From NCBI RefSeq assembly GCF_019890615.1, contig NZ_JAINVZ010000001.1, positions 248,001 through 312,000 of the forward strand: 64,000 nt of DNA, given 5' to 3'. Shown one piece after another: positions 8,757 to 48,541 of this stretch (within the stretch, counting starts at the first letter, position 1; the number at the start of each line of letters is the position of its first letter). The notes below the pieces were generated by a model. That model had not been told where the DNA came from, did not search any database, and saw only the letters and a program-made list of their open reading frames with translations. This DNA comes from Streptantibioticus parmotrematis (lineage in GTDB: Bacteria; Actinomycetota; Actinomycetes; Streptomycetales; Streptomycetaceae). A program made the translations under genes and the position numbers.

Positions 8757-10419
<1,663 letters not shown>

Positions 10420-41168: not shown

Positions 41169-43673
41169 TCAGCGCCGGTCGACGACCGCGCGCAGCTTGC
41201 CGCTGGTCGCGGTGCGCTCGAACGCGTCGACGCCCGCCGTCACCACCTCGAACGCCAGCAGCCCTTCCGCCTCGGCCGCCGCCAGCTCCTCCATGTCGCC
41301 GGTGAACGCCTCGCGCGCGGCGGACGCGTCCGCCGCGTACCGCTCGTCGAGACGCACCGTCAGGCGCTCACTGCCGCCGTCCGCGTCCAGCAGCAGCTGC
41401 ACCTCGCCGTGGTAGCCGAGCCGCTCCTGCGCCGCCTTCACGAACCGCCGGTAGTTGAAGAAGTAGCTGCCGACGCGTACCACGTCGCCGTAGCGCCCGA
41501 GCAGTTCCAGACGTGGCGTGCGGCTGCCGCACGGGCACCGGCCCGCGACCTCACGGCCCAGGTCGCCGATCTCGTACCGCTCCAGACGCTGGCCCGAGCG
41601 CGCCCGCGAGGTGAACACCAGCCGTCCCGGCTCGCCCGGCGGCACCGGCCGGTCCTCGTGCCGGTCGAGGACCTCCAGCGTGTGCAGGTCGGTCAGCACA
41701 TGGTGGACGGAGCCCTCGGCCGCCTCGCACTGGTAGCCCAGCGGGCCCAGGTCGGTGCTGCCGTAGGCGGCCGAGCGGATCACCTCGACGCCGAACTCCT
41801 CGGTGAGCACCCGGCGCTGCTCGGCGGTGAAGTGCTCACCGCCGTAGAACACCTTGCGCACGCCGCCGTACGCCCGCAGCCGCTCGCCCTCGGCGTGGAA
41901 GAGCTGCCACAGGTAGGAGGGCATGCCGAAGACGGTGTCCGCCCGGTACGCCACCAGCGCCTCGGCCACGACGGCGTGGTCGGGCCCTGCGGCCATCGGG
42001 ATCTGAGTGGCGTTCAGCCGCTCCAGGATGGAGAAGAAGCTGATGAAGCTGCCGTACATGCCGCCGCAGAAGAACAGGTTGGCGGCCCGGTCGCGGGCCG
42101 GGTCGAACCCGGCGGCGACCAGCCCGAGCGCCGCCGCCCGCATCTGGTTGTCGTAGTCGTCGCAGGTGAAGACCGACAGCGCGGGCGCCCCCGTGGTGCC
42201 GCCGCTGCGGAAGTACAGGTGGGCGTGCTCGGTGTCGAGCGTCTCCAGCGCCCGCTGCACACCGGCCTTCCCCAGCAGCGGCCCGGCCGGCGCCGGGGGC
42301 AGCACCGGCGGGGCCACCAGGTCGTCCAGGCAGGCCACCGCGCGGAATTCCGGGTCCTCGACGCGCACGCCCACCCGGCGGCTGTAGCGCTGCAACGCGT
42401 AGACGCCGTCGTGCGGTTCGCCCGCGTAGCCGTCGAGCATCCCGCCGACCGGCGTCACCCGGGTGACGCCCGCGGCGAACACCGCGCGGCTCAGCTCGGC
42501 CACGTCCGCCCGGCCGCCGCCGATCGCCGCCGTCTGGAGGTAGCGGCGCATCGGCCGCAGCGTGCCGGTGAGCGCGTGCCGGGGCAGCGGCTTGACCAGG
42601 ACACTGCGGTGCAGCGGCGAGGCGGCCGGGGCGGGCCGGACGTCGGCCAGCACCCGCCAGGAGCCGTCCTCGGCCGCGATCACCTTCGTCAGGCCCAGAT
42701 GGCCCTCCAGCCGGGCCACCAGCTCGGTGGTCGTGACCTCGGCGCGCTCGGCGGTGCCGACGGGCGGCGCGGGGTGCGCGTCGGAGACCTTCGCCAAGCG
42801 CTCGGCGAAGCGGTCGGCGAACGCGAACACCTCCGCGTCCTCCTCGGTGTCGAGGTAGACGATCTGCGGGCTGGAGCACGCCTGCTGCTCGAAACGGCAG
42901 ACGTCCCGCGCCAGCGCGTCCAGCACCGTGTCGTCGGCCGCCGCGTCCCGGGTCAGGTAGGCGAAGGAGATCCGGTGCCCCCACTCGACGACCCGGCAGC
43001 CGGGCGGCGCCAGGCGGCTGATCGCGGCCACCGCGTCGTCGCCACCCCACACGGCCACCGCGTCGGCGTGCTGGCACAGCGCCCGCAGCCACTCCTCGCG
43101 CGACGAGGGGAAGCGCAGCGCGATCACCCGCTCGGCGATCAGGCCGGACGGGTCGGCGGCGCCGAGCGCGGCCAGCAGGTCGAGGGCGAGCGCGGTGTCG
43201 GAGCCGCTGGTCTTGAGCACGTTGACGTTCCCGGCCAGCAGGCCCTCGACCACGCTGAGCGGGGCCACCGCGGCGGCGTTGCCGGGCGCGACGTGGGTGA
43301 GCAGGCCGACCGGCGCCCACGCCTCGTAGACCGTCTGCCGGGCGTCCGGCCGGGTCAGCCGCTCCGGGCGCGGGCCGCCCAGCTCACGGCGGAGCTTGCG
43401 TTCCAGCGCGGGGCGGGCCAGCGCCGCCGCCAGCTCGCCGAGCGTCGCGTCGGCGTCGTCGGCCGCCAGGTGCGCCGCCAGCCGGGCGCGCAGCGGGTCG
43501 GCCGGGTCGGCGAGCGCCGTGGCGATCGTCTCGCAGGCGCCGAGCACGACATCGGTGGGCAGCGGCCGGGCCAGCACCCGCCCGGCGAGGTCCGCCAGCG
43601 AGGCGAGCCGCCGTCCGGCCTCCTCGTCGTCGACGAACTCGCCCTGCCACAGGTGGAGTTGGGTGGAGGTCAC
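41169..43673 (-). CDS. LuxC-like acyl reductase fused to a PaaK-like adenylate-forming ligase
   Basis: 834 residues. Residues 1-430 are a LuxC (acyl-CoA/acyl-protein reductase) domain, with VAPGNAAAVAPLSVVEGLLA (nucleotide-binding region) and the nucleophile Cys266 in FEQQACSSPQ. Residues 440-834 are a PaaK/CapK-type ligase: P-loop FRSGGTTGAP (488-497), SAAYGSTDLGPLGYQ, ERYEIGDLG, a CPCG metal site and a C-terminal SGKLRAVVD. Predicted: activation of an acid and NADPH reduction of a Cys-bound acyl group to an aldehyde. The GTG start overlaps the LuxE-like stop. It is the last gene of a five-gene operon. Such a fusion is not one I recognise. Confidence 0.88.
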   Translation of the reverse strand: MTSTQLHLWQGEFVDDEEAGRRLASLADLAGRVLARPLPTDVVLGACETIATALADPADPLRARLAAHLAADDADATLGELAAALARPALERKLRRELGGPRPERLTRPDARQTVYEAWAPVGLLTHVAPGNAAAVAPLSVVEGLLAGNVNVLKTSGSDTALALDLLAALGAADPSGLIAERVIALRFPSSREEWLRALCQHADAVAVWGGDDAVAAISRLAPPGCRVVEWGHRISFAYLTRDAAADDTVLDALARDVCRFEQQACSSPQIVYLDTEEDAEVFAFADRFAERLAKVSDAHPAPPVGTAERAEVTTTELVARLEGHLGLTKVIAAEDGSWRVLADVRPAPAASPLHRSVLVKPLPRHALTGTLRPMRRYLQTAAIGGGRADVAELSRAVFAAGVTRVTPVGGMLDGYAGEPHDGVYALQRYSRRVGVRVEDPEFRAVACLDDLVAPPVLPPAPAGPLLGKAGVQRALETLDTEHAHLYFRSGGTTGAPALSVFTCDDYDNQMRAAALGLVAAGFDPARDRAANLFFCGGMYGSFISFFSILERLNATQIPMAAGPDHAVVAEALVAYRADTVFGMPSYLWQLFHAEGERLRAYGGVRKVFYGGEHFTAEQRRVLTEEFGVEVIRSAAYGSTDLGPLGYQCEAAEGSVHHVLTDLHTLEVLDRHEDRPVPPGEPGRLVFTSRARSGQRLERYEIGDLGREVAGRCPCGSRTPRLELLGRYGDVVRVGSYFFNYRRFVKAAQERLGYHGEVQLLLDADGGSERLTVRLDERYAADASAAREAFTGDMEELAAAEAEGLLAFEVVTAGVDAFERTATSGKLRAVVDRR

Positions 43674-44836
43674 GACAGTCCCTTCAGAAGTTCGGCGGCG
43701 GCCACCGCACAACTGCGGTTGCGGCTCACCCCGGCCCGGCCGTGCACGGTGAACCAGTCGGTCTCCAGCGGACACGGGCACTCGGCGCCCGGGTGCGACG
43801 AGGCCAGGTCGCCCATCACGACGCTGTGCGCCGGGACGGAGGTGATGTACGGGCTGATCAGGTGGAGGAAGCCGGGCTCCCCGTACGGCAACGGGCGCAG
43901 CGTCGCGGTGTCGCGGACCGCCGCCCGCGACCACACCGGCACGTGCAGCCGGTGGTGGGCGCACTCCACGTACGGCACGCAGTGCTCGACCGAGCCGAAG
44001 GTGTCGCGGATCCGCTCGCCGGGGACGCCGAGGCGTTCGGTGACCTCGGCGTAGAACTCCTCCTTGCCGATGCGCCGGTCGGCGTGGCCCTTCCAGCCGC
44101 CGCCCAGCACCACCAGCGACCCTTCGGGCAGCCGCAGCGGCGCAAGGCCCATCGCCCGCATCCGCTCCAGGGTGAAGTGCAGGAACGCGGGGAAGCCCAG
44201 GATGCGCACCGGCACGTCCTGCTCGGCGTACCGCTGGAGCGCGGCGACGCAGCCGTGCACGTCGAACTCGTGGCCGGAGCCGGTGTGCCGCAGCGCGTGC
44301 GTGGTGTGCCGGGCGGGCGCGAAGTCGCACAGGTAGTTGTCGGTGAACGAGGTGCCGAGCCGCAGCGACGGCGCGGGTTCGTAGCTGTAGAGCAGGTAGT
44401 TGACCGGCTGGTCCGGGGTGATCCAGCCGTAGTGGTCGAAGACGCGGGCGACCATGCGCTGCGCCGCGCGGATGGTCCACTCGTCGAAGAACATCTGCGA
44501 CTTCTGGCCGCTCGTCCCCGAGGAGGTCAGGTGCAGGAACACCTCCTCACGCGGGATCGAGAGCACCTCGTGGCGCTTGAAGAAGTTGGCGTGCACCAGC
44601 GGCGCGCGCACCTGCGGTCCCAGGCCCGGCACGGGCTCCTCGGCGGGACCGGCCAGCAGCGAGCGGAAGAAGTCCGAACGCCCGGCGTGCCAGGCGTGCG
44701 CCTCGGTCATCGCCGCGGCGAACAGCTCGTCCACCGCGGGACCGGTCTCGTACGGCGACGGAAGGTCGCACAGCCGCTGGACCCGGCCGAGCGCCGCCGG
44801 GTCGGGGACCGCGACGGGGGCGAGATGGGGGTTCAT
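43670..44836 (-). CDS. LuxE-like acyl-protein synthetase
   Basis: 388 residues, close to the length of bacterial LuxE. Adenylation P-loop LTSSGTSGQKSQMF at 103-116, RDTFGSVEHCVPYVEC (A5-like), and VVMGDLASSHPG (A7-like). LuxE activates a fatty acid with ATP and passes the acyl group through itself to the Cys of LuxC. Placement directly before a LuxC-domain protein, with a 4-base overlap, supports a working fatty-acid reductase pair. The substrate could be any carboxylic acid. ATG 44836 overlaps the GNAT stop (ATGA). Confidence 0.88.
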   Translation of the reverse strand: MNPHLAPVAVPDPAALGRVQRLCDLPSPYETGPAVDELFAAAMTEAHAWHAGRSDFFRSLLAGPAEEPVPGLGPQVRAPLVHANFFKRHEVLSIPREEVFLHLTSSGTSGQKSQMFFDEWTIRAAQRMVARVFDHYGWITPDQPVNYLLYSYEPAPSLRLGTSFTDNYLCDFAPARHTTHALRHTGSGHEFDVHGCVAALQRYAEQDVPVRILGFPAFLHFTLERMRAMGLAPLRLPEGSLVVLGGGWKGHADRRIGKEEFYAEVTERLGVPGERIRDTFGSVEHCVPYVECAHHRLHVPVWSRAAVRDTATLRPLPYGEPGFLHLISPYITSVPAHSVVMGDLASSHPGAECPCPLETDWFTVHGRAGVSRNRSCAVAAAELLKGLS

Positions 44837-45972
44837 CGGGACACCTCGTGAAGGGGCAGGTAGGTGGCCGCCCAGGCGGCCAGATAGGCCCCCAGGTACG
44901 GCCGGAGCAGGGGGCTGACGGCCGCGGAGCGGAAGTCGATCTGACGGCTGGTCCTGGACAGCACGACGTAGTCGTGGAACCGGTCGCCGATCCGGCGCAT
45001 CGCCGGGTAGAGCGCGCTGGGCACGAAACCCGAGGCGAGGAAGACCTGGAGGGCCTCGGTGTCGGCCAGCGGAAGCAGTGTCTCGACGTAGTCCGCGCCG
45101 GCCCGGGTGACCGCGGACATCAGCGCCTCCAGCGCGCCACTGACCGCGGCCGGACGCGGGTGCACCGCGACCAGCGCGCAACTGGCCGCCACCGGGTCGA
45201 GGTCGGCGTACGCCTCGAAGCCGCCGTCGTGCGCGACCAGCACCGCGTTCGGCGCGTGCAGCGGGAAGAAGCGGTCACCCGCGTCGGGGAAGCGCTCCAG
45301 GAAGCGGCGGCGTACGAACGCGGGGGCCGCGACCAGTTCGATCGGCTCGGCGCCCGGCACGACCCGGTCCCGGTCGCGGGTGGGGACCGGCTCCACGCCC
45401 GCGTAGTCGATGCCGACGCCGAGGACGACCGCGTCCAGCAGCGCGGTGAGACGTTCCGGTACGCGCTCCACCGCCGCGCGACGCTCCAGCACGCCGTCGG
45501 CGTACCGGGCGAACAGCGCGAGGCTCTCGCAGCCCTCGACCTCGACGGCGTTGGGCATCAGGCCCAGCGGGCGGAAGCCGTTGCGCACGACGACGTGCTG
45601 CGGGCCCTCGGTGACGACGCGCACGGTGGCGTAGACCGAGTCCAGGCGGCCGGTGCCGAACGCGTCCGCGCAGACGGCCGCCGTGAGCCGGGAGGCGAGC
45701 CCGCCCTCGCGGTGACCGGGGTGCACGGCGAGGCCGACCAGCTTGCCGATGCGGCTGCCCGGCTCGGTCTGCACCACGGCGGAGGCGACCGGTTCACCGG
45801 TGTCGGCGGTGCGGGCGGTCAGCCAGTGGGCGTGGCCGTCGGTGATCAGCCGCCGCATGACCGCCGGATCGCTGCCGAGCGGCACCGGGTAGCCGTGACC
45901 GTAGACATCGAAGTACAGCTGGCGCAGCGCGGCGATGTCCTGCACGCCCGCGGGGGACAGGACGGCGGTCAC
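44833..45972 (-). CDS. Tandem GNAT-type N-acyltransferase
   Basis: 379 residues. The N-terminal GNAT domain (about 1-150) has the acetyl-CoA loop in VGLAVHPGHREGGLASRL and the closing NGFRPLGLMPN. The C-terminal half repeats the pattern more weakly (VAVHPRPAAVSGALEALM and FLASGFVPSALYPAMRR), suggesting a degenerate second GNAT fold. It ends with a hydrophobic segment. It is predicted to transfer an acyl or acetyl group to an amine of the operon's product or precursor. Start GTG overlaps the transporter stop (GTGA). Confidence 0.8.
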   Translation of the reverse strand: MTAVLSPAGVQDIAALRQLYFDVYGHGYPVPLGSDPAVMRRLITDGHAHWLTARTADTGEPVASAVVQTEPGSRIGKLVGLAVHPGHREGGLASRLTAAVCADAFGTGRLDSVYATVRVVTEGPQHVVVRNGFRPLGLMPNAVEVEGCESLALFARYADGVLERRAAVERVPERLTALLDAVVLGVGIDYAGVEPVPTRDRDRVVPGAEPIELVAAPAFVRRRFLERFPDAGDRFFPLHAPNAVLVAHDGGFEAYADLDPVAASCALVAVHPRPAAVSGALEALMSAVTRAGADYVETLLPLADTEALQVFLASGFVPSALYPAMRRIGDRFHDYVVLSRTSRQIDFRSAAVSPLLRPYLGAYLAAWAATYLPLHEVSR

Positions 45973-47282
45973 GACGCGTCCCCCGTCACCACGAGGGCTT
46001 CGCGGGCCGGACGGGCGGGCGCGGCGGGTTCTCGGCCGTCGCGGGCGCGCAGCCACCACAGGGTCAGGGCGACCGGCGCCAGCCCGACGCCCTGGACCAG
46101 GCACAGCACCCGGGCCGACAGATCGTCGCCCAGCGCGCCGAAGACCAGTGAGGAGAGCGGGAAGGTCGCGCCCAGCAGCGCCTGCATGACGGCGAAGAAC
46201 CCGGGCTTGTCGGCGGCGGGCACCAGGCGCTGGAAGAGTGCCACGAACCGCACGCCGATCACGCCCACGCACCAGCCCACGACCACCAGCGAGCCGATCG
46301 CGGTGGCGTGCCCGGCGACCAGTCCCGGCAGCGCCAGGGCCGCCGCGGTCAGCGCCAGGCAGGCCGCGCCCACGTCGGTCGGGCGACCGGGCAGCCGCCC
46401 GCCGGTGAACGACCCGACGAGCGTGCCGACGCCCAGCGCGGCCTCGAACGACGCGACGGTCGGGCCGCCGGAATGCAGGACGCTACGCGTGTAGAGCGGC
46501 ATGACGACGTAGATCGCGGTCGTGAAGACGTTGGCGGCGGCGAAGCAGACCAGGACGCTGCGGATGAACGGAAGCCCGGCGAGCACGGCGCGCAGGGTCC
46601 GGCGCTCCGGAACGGCTTCCTCGGCGGGGTCGCCCGGCTCATCGGATCGCGCCACGACCGTCGCCGGGCCGTACGCGAAGCGGGCCGAGGCGACCAGGGC
46701 GGAGGCCGCCAGGTAAGCCCCCGCGCATCCGGCGACGACGCCCGGCAGGCCCCAGGCGTCGACGACCAGCGGACCGAGCAGGCCGCCGGCGAGCCCGGCG
46801 AGGGACTGGGTGGACAGCTCGAAGCCGGTCGCCGCCTCGATGTCGGCGTCCTCGACCAGCTCGGGCACGGACGTCGTCAGGCACGGGTCGAACACCGCCT
46901 GGCAGCTCGCCAGCGCCAGCGCGGCGGCGTAGACGGCGGCCATCGGCAAGGACGCGGCGTACGCCCAGACGGCGGTGGCCGCGGCGACGGCGCCCGCGAC
47001 ACCGGCCGAGGCCGACAGCACCCTGCGGTGCGCGTGGCGTGCGACGACGCGGGCCACGAGCGGGGCGAGGGCGACGGCGGGCAGCGTGCTGACGGTCAGG
47101 AACAGGCCGGACTCCAGGCCGCGCCGGGCGCCGCCCGCGAAGCCGACCAGCCACCAGACCGCGCCCACCTGGAACATCCGGCCGGCCGCCTGGGTGAGGA
47201 CCTGGGCGGCCCACACCGCCCCGAAGGAACGGTTGCGCAGCACGACGGGCAGTCGGCGCGCCCTTCTGACGGGGCCGGTCAC
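45969..47282 (-). CDS. MFS transporter (exporter-like, 12 helices)
   Basis: 437 residues with about 12 helices. It opens LPVVLRNRSFGAVWAAQVLTQAAGRMFQVG, the pattern of MFS_3/MdfA-like exporters of the enterobactin-exporter type. The sugar-porter signature is absent. It lies second in the LuxC/LuxE operon, with starts and stops overlapped on both sides, so it probably exports the operon's product or imports its precursor. Start GTG 47282 overlaps the ligase stop. Confidence 0.87.
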   Translation of the reverse strand: MTGPVRRARRLPVVLRNRSFGAVWAAQVLTQAAGRMFQVGAVWWLVGFAGGARRGLESGLFLTVSTLPAVALAPLVARVVARHAHRRVLSASAGVAGAVAAATAVWAYAASLPMAAVYAAALALASCQAVFDPCLTTSVPELVEDADIEAATGFELSTQSLAGLAGGLLGPLVVDAWGLPGVVAGCAGAYLAASALVASARFAYGPATVVARSDEPGDPAEEAVPERRTLRAVLAGLPFIRSVLVCFAAANVFTTAIYVVMPLYTRSVLHSGGPTVASFEAALGVGTLVGSFTGGRLPGRPTDVGAACLALTAAALALPGLVAGHATAIGSLVVVGWCVGVIGVRFVALFQRLVPAADKPGFFAVMQALLGATFPLSSLVFGALGDDLSARVLCLVQGVGLAPVALTLWWLRARDGREPAAPARPAREALVVTGDAS

Positions 47283-48541
47283 GAGTGCGGCCGTTCGTCG
47301 ACCACGCGGACCAGCTTGCCGGAGCGCGCGTTGACGGCGAGGTCCTCGTGGCGCACCCACTCGACGGCGAGCGGGTTGACGTGCCCGGCGTCCGCCGCGC
47401 TGTCGTACAGCGGGCGCCCGGCGAGCACCGCCTTGATCACGAGAAGGGTCGACTCCTCGTCCATGCGCGCCGGTTCCTGGGCCGCCAGACGCAGCACGAG
47501 CCCGTCCCGGCCGTCCACGCGGCGCACCACCAGCTGGAGCGCGGTCACCGCGCCGGCGGGGTCCGCTTCCTTGACGATGTCGTGCACGTCCTGGGTGTGG
47601 AGCGAGACCGGTCCGACCCGCACGCCCTCCTCGGCGCGGCCGAGGATGCGGAAGACGCCCGCCGCCCGGTCGACCCATTCGGCCCGGTCGCCCGCCGGGT
47701 AGCGCAGCACCGGCATCAGGCGCCTGCGCAGGTCGGTGACGACCAGCCGCCCGGCTGTCCCCTCCGCCTCGACGGGTCGGTCCGTCTCGTCGTGGAGGAT
47801 CTCGACGACGGTGTGCGGCGTGAACGCCCTGTGCACCCGGGGATCGTCCCCCGGCACCGCCTCGCCCAGCAGGCCGGCGTCCACGCTCGCGTAGCCCAGG
47901 GAGCGGGCGACGGCGTTGGGGAACGCGGCCCGGAGCAGCGGGAGTTGGTCGCCGAAGAGGCACTCGCCGCCGAAGAACAGCAGCTCCACGTGGGGCATCG
48001 GGCGGCCGGCGGCGGTCAGCCGCGCCGCCAGGGCGCACAGCGTGGTGGGTGTTCCCGCGACCACCTGGACCGCGAATTCCTCCAGTGTTCCGGCCGTCGA
48101 CTCGAAAGGCGCGGCTCCGCCGATCGGAAGTCGCACATTCGTGACGGGGGAGCGGTGCAGGGAATCCAGAATGAAGCTGAAACTGGCGTAGAGGTCACCC
48201 GCGTAGAACAGGTCGGCGACCCGGTGGCCCGGCCTGAGCCCGGCCGTGACGAGTCCGGAACCGAAAGCCGTGGTGAAATCGCGCCATTCCGTGCGGGTGT
48301 AGTAGGAGAATTTCGGTGATCCGGTCGTGCCGCCGCTCCTGAACACCACCGCTTCGTCGAGCGGCGCGGTCAGCAGCCTGTTGTCGCGGGGTGAGTTCGC
48401 CCGCCAGAATTCGGCTTGGGGAACCACCGGGAGTTCGGTGACGTGCGCCACGTCCTCCGGGAGATGCGCGTAAAGCTCCTGGTAGAAGGGTGAGTTGCGG
48501 CGCGCGAAGCGTATCAGCTCCGCGAATGACTGAACGGGCAT
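47279..48541 (-). CDS. PaaK/coenzyme F390 synthetase-like adenylate-forming ligase
   Basis: 420 residues from ATG 48541, which has AGGA five bases ahead; the frame is open to a TTG at 48586 without a ribosome site. FARRNSPFYQELY, P-loop FRSGGTTGSPKF (68-78), GYASVDAGLLG, PVLRYPAGDRAEW, and C-terminal NARSGKLVRVVDERP with the conserved Lys mark the phenylacetate-CoA ligase-like branch. It makes an acyl-adenylate and, in most relatives, a CoA or protein thioester. First gene of the LuxC/LuxE operon, about 300 bases downstream of a good promoter. Confidence 0.88.
   Translation of the reverse strand: MPVQSFAELIRFARRNSPFYQELYAHLPEDVAHVTELPVVPQAEFWRANSPRDNRLLTAPLDEAVVFRSGGTTGSPKFSYYTRTEWRDFTTAFGSGLVTAGLRPGHRVADLFYAGDLYASFSFILDSLHRSPVTNVRLPIGGAAPFESTAGTLEEFAVQVVAGTPTTLCALAARLTAAGRPMPHVELLFFGGECLFGDQLPLLRAAFPNAVARSLGYASVDAGLLGEAVPGDDPRVHRAFTPHTVVEILHDETDRPVEAEGTAGRLVVTDLRRRLMPVLRYPAGDRAEWVDRAAGVFRILGRAEEGVRVGPVSLHTQDVHDIVKEADPAGAVTALQLVVRRVDGRDGLVLRLAAQEPARMDEESTLLVIKAVLAGRPLYDSAADAGHVNPLAVEWVRHEDLAVNARSGKLVRVVDERPHS

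Follow-up and report, generated by a model that had tools for sequence, protein, structure and literature searches.

A five-gene operon on the minus strand of a 64,000-nucleotide stretch of the Streptantibioticus parmotrematis genome (Streptomycetaceae; contig NZ_JAINVZ010000001.1, hereafter the window), at window positions 41169-48541, is very probably an actinobacterial form of the leup operon, making a leupeptin-type aldehyde, most likely acetyl-Leu-Leu-argininal together with its usual congeners, without a nonribosomal peptide synthetase (NRPS). Leupeptin is a standard reagent against proteases in the laboratory, and a leup operon has reportedly been described by Li et al. 2020 (Angew. Chem., doi 10.1002/anie.202005506; also cited in PMC9177418 and PMC10676414) in Klebsiella michiganensis/oxytoca, Photorhabdus and Xenorhabdus. 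For the window operon, the present analysis establishes what the genes are and how they are ordered, the catalytic residues, the co-inheritance and the correspondence to leupABCD. An earlier note on this DNA had proposed an undescribed pathway from acids to an aldehyde, and had named beforehand the finding that would end its novelty, namely that all five genes together correspond to a cluster already characterised. Such a match was found in the experimentally studied leup operon of Gammaproteobacteria, and the claim of novelty therefore falls; the assignment is useful nonetheless, although the pathway is already of a known kind. The genes and their proposed functions are as follows.

47279..48541, minus strand: PaaK-like AMP-forming ligase (420 residues; PaaK/DVU_1553-type models), counterpart of leupC; proposed amide ligase.
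45969..47282, minus strand: MFS transporter (437 residues; MFS_1, E 9.3e-22); probable product exporter.
44833..45972, minus strand: GNAT with a probable second GNAT-like lobe (379 residues), counterpart of leupD; proposed leucine N-acetyltransferase.
43670..44836, minus strand: LuxE-like acyl-protein synthetase (388 residues), counterpart of leupA; proposed to activate the peptide acid.
41169..43673, minus strand: LuxC-PaaK fusion (834 residues), counterpart of leupB; proposed reductase plus amide ligase.
Parts of the fusion: LuxC at residues about 38-432 (proposed reductase) and PaaK-like ligase at about 445-834 (proposed amide ligase).

The identification rests on mapping the published Klebsiella cluster onto a locus of K. 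michiganensis DSM 25444 (L061). According to PMC8283571, the primers leupA_f and leupB_r give a product of 1,235 bp, and the K. michiganensis leupeptin locus consists of a transporter and leupABCD. Both primers match L061 with no mismatches, one near the start of the LuxE gene (8924-8944) and the other inside the LuxC-PaaK gene (10139-10158), spanning 1,235 bp. The published cluster coordinates (5,831 bp), when transferred to L061, end at about 14704, within 5 bp of the end of the GNAT gene (14699). The primer sites and the cluster end thus identify leupA as LuxE, leupB as the LuxC-PaaK fusion, leupC as PaaK and leupD as GNAT, and a transporter adjoins these genes in L061 as published. Elsewhere the major leup products are given as leupeptin and its Lys analogue, with Leu-Arg pyrazinones also reported and homoarginine forms obtained from Xenorhabdus/Photorhabdus leup operons (PMC11480411); the formation of leupeptin in Xenorhabdus bovienii is ascribed to separate AMP-dependent ligases and a reductase (PMC11212599, citing Li et al. 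2020).

The five open reading frames (ORFs) were confirmed with no stops inside any of them, and their coordinates give a 4-bp overlap at every junction. Domain searches bear out the PaaK-like ligase, MFS protein, LuxE-like protein and LuxC-PaaK fusion that the earlier note had placed on one strand. In Pfam, the LuxE gene product matches PF04443 (LuxE, E 1.8e-24), and the fusion matches LuxC (E 4.8e-87, residues 38-432) and AMP-binding (E 4.3e-12, residues 482-688). The standalone PaaK-like protein matches AMP-binding only at E 4.9e-6, under the Pfam cut-off, and among NCBIfam models the DVU_1553 family (2.2e-22) and PaaK (6.5e-13 to 5.4e-11), all under the curated cut-offs. No luciferase domain and no condensation, carrier or NRPS reductase domain was found by Pfam in the five proteins. 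The source genome (7.4 Mb; G+C content of the window 73.0%) has its sole LuxE match and its best LuxC match in this operon, with a second, marginal LuxC match elsewhere; luxD gave no match in this genome, though the positive control likewise gave none. A lux-type fatty-aldehyde pathway was rejected on the NCBIfam equivalog scores (70.2 bits for LuxC and 73 bits for LuxE, against cut-offs of 750 and 550 bits, respectively).

The catalytic machinery appears intact. In alignments with the Photobacterium enzymes, C266 of the LuxC part falls on the cysteine of QQAC in LuxC (7xc6_A), and C376 of LuxE on the C-terminal cysteine of LuxE (7xc6_E); these Photobacterium cysteines are the known nucleophiles. 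A loss of the nucleophile cysteine in homologs, which the earlier note had seen as an argument against a working pathway, was not observed: among the homologous loci described below, C266 is kept in 104/104 aligned LuxC sequences and C376 in 102/102 aligned LuxE sequences. The ligase lysine of the fusion (K826) is present in 103 of the 104 aligned, the exception being Arg, and D221, D285, R302 and K409 of the standalone PaaK-like protein in all 102 aligned. Four rows had been removed before these counts, namely one each of LuxE (2 residues extracted), fusion (481 residues), PaaK (160 residues) and GNAT (210 residues), the fusion and PaaK rows coming from shortened genes.

Structure models are in line with these assignments. 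In the model of the fusion (mean predicted local distance difference test score, pLDDT, 84.8), the LuxC half matches 7xc6_A with Z 23.5 over 407 aligned residues at a root-mean-square deviation (rmsd) of 19.9, which indicates that some parts are placed differently, and the PaaK half matches the PaaK-type ligase 4r1l with Z 29.2 and rmsd 4.9 over 368 aligned residues. As for the tandem GNAT claimed earlier, Pfam supports the first half only (Acetyltransf_1, E 1.6e-7). Over its first lobe, the AlphaFold model (mean pLDDT 89.5) matches GNAT acetyltransferase folds with Z as high as 15.2, the 50 VIA-align rows mostly spanning residues 1-262 and barely covering the second lobe; in the latter, strands and helices follow one another much as in GNATs, and two-domain GNATs account for a few of the Foldseek matches, at high rmsd. 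Judging from the model, the protein is thus likely to be a tandem of two GNAT lobes, short of proof for the second.

The same set of enzymes recurs well outside close strains, as judged from 104 fusion-bearing loci (the best 80 of 185 scan matches, 20 chosen from places in the family, and four plasmid loci; one more full-length plasmid record, H3, is not among them). These loci are not independent; L051 and L107, for instance, are DNA of one strain, and the two plasmids from Salmonella are closely related. GNAT lies no more than 9 kb from the fusion at 104/104 loci, and LuxE and PaaK at 102/104 each; where LuxE is missing (two loci), a different contig of that genome carries it, and the two PaaK-less loci (L111, L121) begin at a contig end. 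In the former pair, an Elusimicrobia metagenome-assembled genome (MAG; L071) and an unclassified MAG (L082), the fusion, PaaK and GNAT stand together. An MFS protein similar to either of the two query transporters occurs within the same distance at 75/104 loci (at only 18-22% identity in four, and as a 121-residue remnant in two). The scan of genome contigs, of which the best 80 of 185 matches were compared, placed the fusion in Enterobacterales, Pseudomonas, Chromobacterium, Bacteriovorax-type MAGs, an Elusimicrobia MAG, Azorhizobium and many Streptomycetaceae. A restriction of the set to close strains was thereby ruled out by the family and wider scans alike, and the conservation that the earlier note had asked about extends over several phyla.

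Within the family, the fusion is found in 73 of the 394 genomes analyzed (both clades described here, counting one fusion truncated where its contig stops and two broken into two parts), and a search with LuxC only (E 1e-40) returned the same 73 genomes. Clade A comprises 56 genomes with 63-100% identity of the fusion, and clade B 20 places in 20 genomes with 56-61% identity, three genomes (G013, G026, G034) having both. The order PaaK-MFS-GNAT-LuxE-fusion on one strand is kept at 59 of the 62 clade A loci compared; of the other three, one showed no MFS and two run into a contig end. In clade B (L039-L048, L055-L057), GNAT-LuxE-fusion is kept at 13/13 loci, with PaaK convergent at 11 and co-directional at two; near the fusion, none of these 13 loci showed an MFS protein resembling either of the two operon transporters.

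Overall, LuxE, the fusion, PaaK and GNAT have been inherited together in Actinomycetota, Gammaproteobacteria, Bdellovibrionota, Azorhizobium and an Elusimicrobia MAG. The distance matrices of the four proteins correlate at r 0.951-0.985 (98 loci), the maximum of 500 permutations per pair being 0.297. In every one of the four quick trees, clade A, clade B, the Gammaproteobacteria and the Bdellovibrionota come out as single clades; the support values are 88-100, apart from 69 for clade A in the tree of GNAT. At the 13 proteobacterial loci, genes beyond the operon recur at only one or two loci, which argues that the operon moves as a unit. Leup-type genes are also carried by two Salmonella enterica IncF plasmids (L035, CP054717.1; L036, CP053580.1), both predicted to be conjugative. 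Recombinase and toxin-antitoxin genes lie nearby on these plasmids; the transporter is a 121-residue remnant in both, and GNAT is split in one. A leup-type locus of Rosenbergiella gaditana (L064), with the fusion and PaaK frames shortened to 481 and 160 residues, is apparently decaying.

A link to leupeptin in actinomycetes is provided by S. cattleya (Streptantibioticus cattleyicolor) DSM 46488. Leupeptin was first reported in 1969 from actinomycetes (reference titles in PMC11212599). Supernatants of S. cattleya DSM 46488 give the leupeptin family by liquid chromatography-tandem mass spectrometry (LC-MS/MS), acetylleucylleucine being among the compounds, and forms with Lys-al, Val and propionyl were likewise obtained from the Streptomyces strains of that study (PMC12235219). 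The plasmid pSCATT of this strain carries the five operon genes at 73-85% protein identity, and 5,490/5,490 bases of the locus in one of the analyzed genomes (G005) are present on it, which identifies G005 as S. cattleya. No thioester reductase over the TIGR01746 cut-off was found in the latter, versus four in the source genome of the window, an NRPS described below being one of them, and two in another member of the genus (G016). The two best NAD_binding_4 matches of S. cattleya are a 644-residue frame with DUF6230 and a 417-residue stand-alone frame, neither of them an NRPS; the other seven PF07993 matches are in frames of 339-540 residues, too short for an NRPS, Pfam having covered only the best two. 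Since two profile searches found no NRPS-type reductase there, the operon is the only candidate found in S. cattleya. Other mass spectrometry (MS) reports of leupeptin features in Streptomyces come without genes (PMC13273461, PMC11865988), and no assignment of a leup-type operon to Streptomyces was found in the available portions of the literature searched, a search that was not exhaustive. Of the literature around LuxC/LuxE, PMC9301485 concerned a reporter plasmid.

The family chemistry of the enzymes and the structure of the product suggest the following course of synthesis, in which the roles of individual enzymes are our own assignment. GNAT would acetylate leucine using acetyl-CoA, and one of the PaaK-like ligases would convert acetyl-leucine to the acyl-AMP and couple it with another leucine. 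The other PaaK-like ligase, probably the LuxC-fused domain, would then add arginine to give leupeptin acid; its place in one protein with LuxC points to a final coupling next to the reduction step. LuxE would activate leupeptin acid with ATP, hold it on C376 and transfer it to C266 of LuxC, which would reduce the bound acyl group with NAD(P)H to the argininal, and the MFS protein would export the product. We infer how the couplings are divided between the two PaaK-like ligases, which amino acids serve as acceptors in this strain, the cofactor and the export step. An exported product is supported by the mutually dissimilar MFS proteins that adjoin the same enzymes. In its outline (activation of acids, N-acylation, reduction of a carboxyl to an aldehyde, and export), the scheme of the earlier note agrees with this evidence and is probably right. 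Work from the 1970s-80s reportedly described an acetyl-leucine-forming enzyme, a leupeptin acid synthetase and an ATP- and NADPH-dependent leupeptin acid reductase, but forms no part of the evidence here; the literature search found nothing on leupeptin enzymology in S. roseus.

Several observations weigh against the leupeptin assignment. The identity to the Klebsiella (L061) proteins is moderate (55% for LuxE, 42% over residues 89-834 for the fusion, 36% for PaaK and 26% over 138 residues for GNAT) and the operon MFS shows no sequence similarity to the transporter of the Klebsiella leup locus (BLASTP E 1.0), so that other acceptor residues may be used here. That the source strain produces leupeptin is a prediction from sequence, and the S. 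cattleya reports are MS annotations without a knock-out (PMC12235219). Moreover, the source genome has an NRPS with condensation, adenylation, thiolation and reductase domains (C-A-T-R; 1,567 residues) beside an adenylation-thiolation protein (629 residues; G000:C56:36015-42605, equal to L151:6016-12606). A peptide aldehyde from this strain therefore need not come from the operon, and this NRPS is a possible second candidate pathway. It would also fit the view that Streptomyces leupeptin is of NRPS origin, as in antipain, with the window operon making something else: the compound is placed with NRPS products in PMC10548850 and PMC11212599, the latter mentioning the non-NRPS Xenorhabdus route as well. 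We nevertheless consider this improbable, as the operon is a gene-for-gene counterpart of leup and S. cattleya, a reported leupeptin maker, showed no NRPS-type reductase in the two profile searches; an NRPS origin of the S. cattleya compound is disfavoured.

The moderate identity to the Klebsiella enzymes could instead reflect the same machinery directed to another N-acylated di- or tripeptide aldehyde, such as a Leu-argininal dipeptide, a lysinal or a compound with other side chains. Variation of this kind is on record, both as the Val, Lys and propionyl congeners of Streptomyces (PMC12235219) and as the homoarginine forms of Xenorhabdus/Photorhabdus (PMC11480411), and three genomes with both clade A and clade B suggest that members of the family differ in product. 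On the other hand, leupeptin itself has been reported from S. cattleyicolor, which belongs to the same clade and shares 73-85% identity, and a different principal product appears unlikely to us. A bioluminescence-like reductase of fatty or aryl acids, making an aldehyde unrelated to peptides, would account for the LuxC and LuxE Pfam domains, but hardly for a gene set that matches leup and has two further ligase domains and a GNAT as partners at nearly all of the 104 loci, and we regard it as very improbable. A leup-type operon for leupeptin remains the preferred assignment.

A side lead concerns LuxE and LuxC outside this operon. A Streptomyces europaeiscabiei plasmid (NZ_CP109155.1; L037:4559-13259) encodes LuxE (51% identity) and an unfused LuxC (47%) beside a YcaO-nitroreductase protein, a metallo-beta-lactamase-fold protein and an MbnB/TglH/ChrH-family enzyme of ribosomally synthesized and post-translationally modified peptide (RiPP) biosynthesis. 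Directly after LuxE/LuxC stands an annotated ORF of 53 residues with four FPFR repeats, each ending in Arg; none of 20,000 shuffles of this peptide repeats any 4-mer four times. Tentatively, the leup-type LuxE and LuxC may be a portable module converting a peptide C-terminal carboxylate to an aldehyde, taken up here by a ribosomal pathway with a product such as Phe-Pro-Phe-argininal; if true, this would join peptide-aldehyde chemistry to ribosomal peptides. A search for further unfused LuxC of this kind in the 394 family genomes (E 1e-40) matched only the 73 genomes that have the fusion; in 392 genomes of the genus (E 1e-119) it gave two matches, and a plasmid search gave no second close relative of the locus. 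LuxE-LuxC pairs of the same type in two genomes of the same family (L165:8147-10722 in G396 and L166:9288-11878 in G647; identities of 67-68% and 54-55%) have no homologues of the RiPP genes within the stretch taken, which leaves the putative ribosomal argininal resting on one locus. In L165, a DUF4291 protein adjoins the pair. A bare LuxE-LuxC pair (40% and 35% identity) is also present on a Chloroflexota plasmid (CP069395.1; L038:8889-11290). The literature search, judged from its listing, returned no RiPP aldehyde made by LuxE/LuxC.

The five-gene set is real and conserved. Its pathway is not new: leup operons build their inhibitor independently of the usual giant assembly-line enzymes. The operon type offers a concrete non-NRPS gene set for leupeptin, an old Streptomyces compound, and LuxE with LuxC may offer a portable aldehyde module. 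The spread of the operon over several phyla, including Bdellovibrionota, and to Salmonella IncF plasmids shows a compact peptide-aldehyde pathway travelling as a unit.

The Klebsiella leup operon, whose locus was compared directly, has in common with the window five functions (LuxE, LuxC-PaaK fusion, PaaK, GNAT and MFS transporter) and the catalytic residues. It differs in gene order (MFS-LuxE-fusion-PaaK-GNAT, versus PaaK-MFS-GNAT-LuxE-fusion in the window), in a transporter of unrelated sequence and in its GNAT (305 residues, versus 379 in the window, with the low and partial identity given above). The LuxC-LuxE pair of bioluminescence (7xc6) shares the division of labor, LuxE activating the acid and LuxC reducing it, and the aligned cysteines, whereas the window LuxC is fused to PaaK, the operon has no luciferase gene, and its proteins score under the family cut-offs. 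NatL2 and ClxA, which presumably join acids to other small molecules, share their fold family with the PaaK-like part of the fusion, and the standalone ligase matches PaaK-like ligases by sequence; those enzymes bind aromatic acids (amino- or hydroxybenzoate-type ligands, according to titles), whereas amino acids or peptides are the probable substrates of the window ligases. Finally, the antipain/MAPI-type NRPS pathways of Streptomyces likewise lead to peptide aldehyde protease inhibitors, but use condensation, carrier and NRPS reductase domains that the window proteins do not have.

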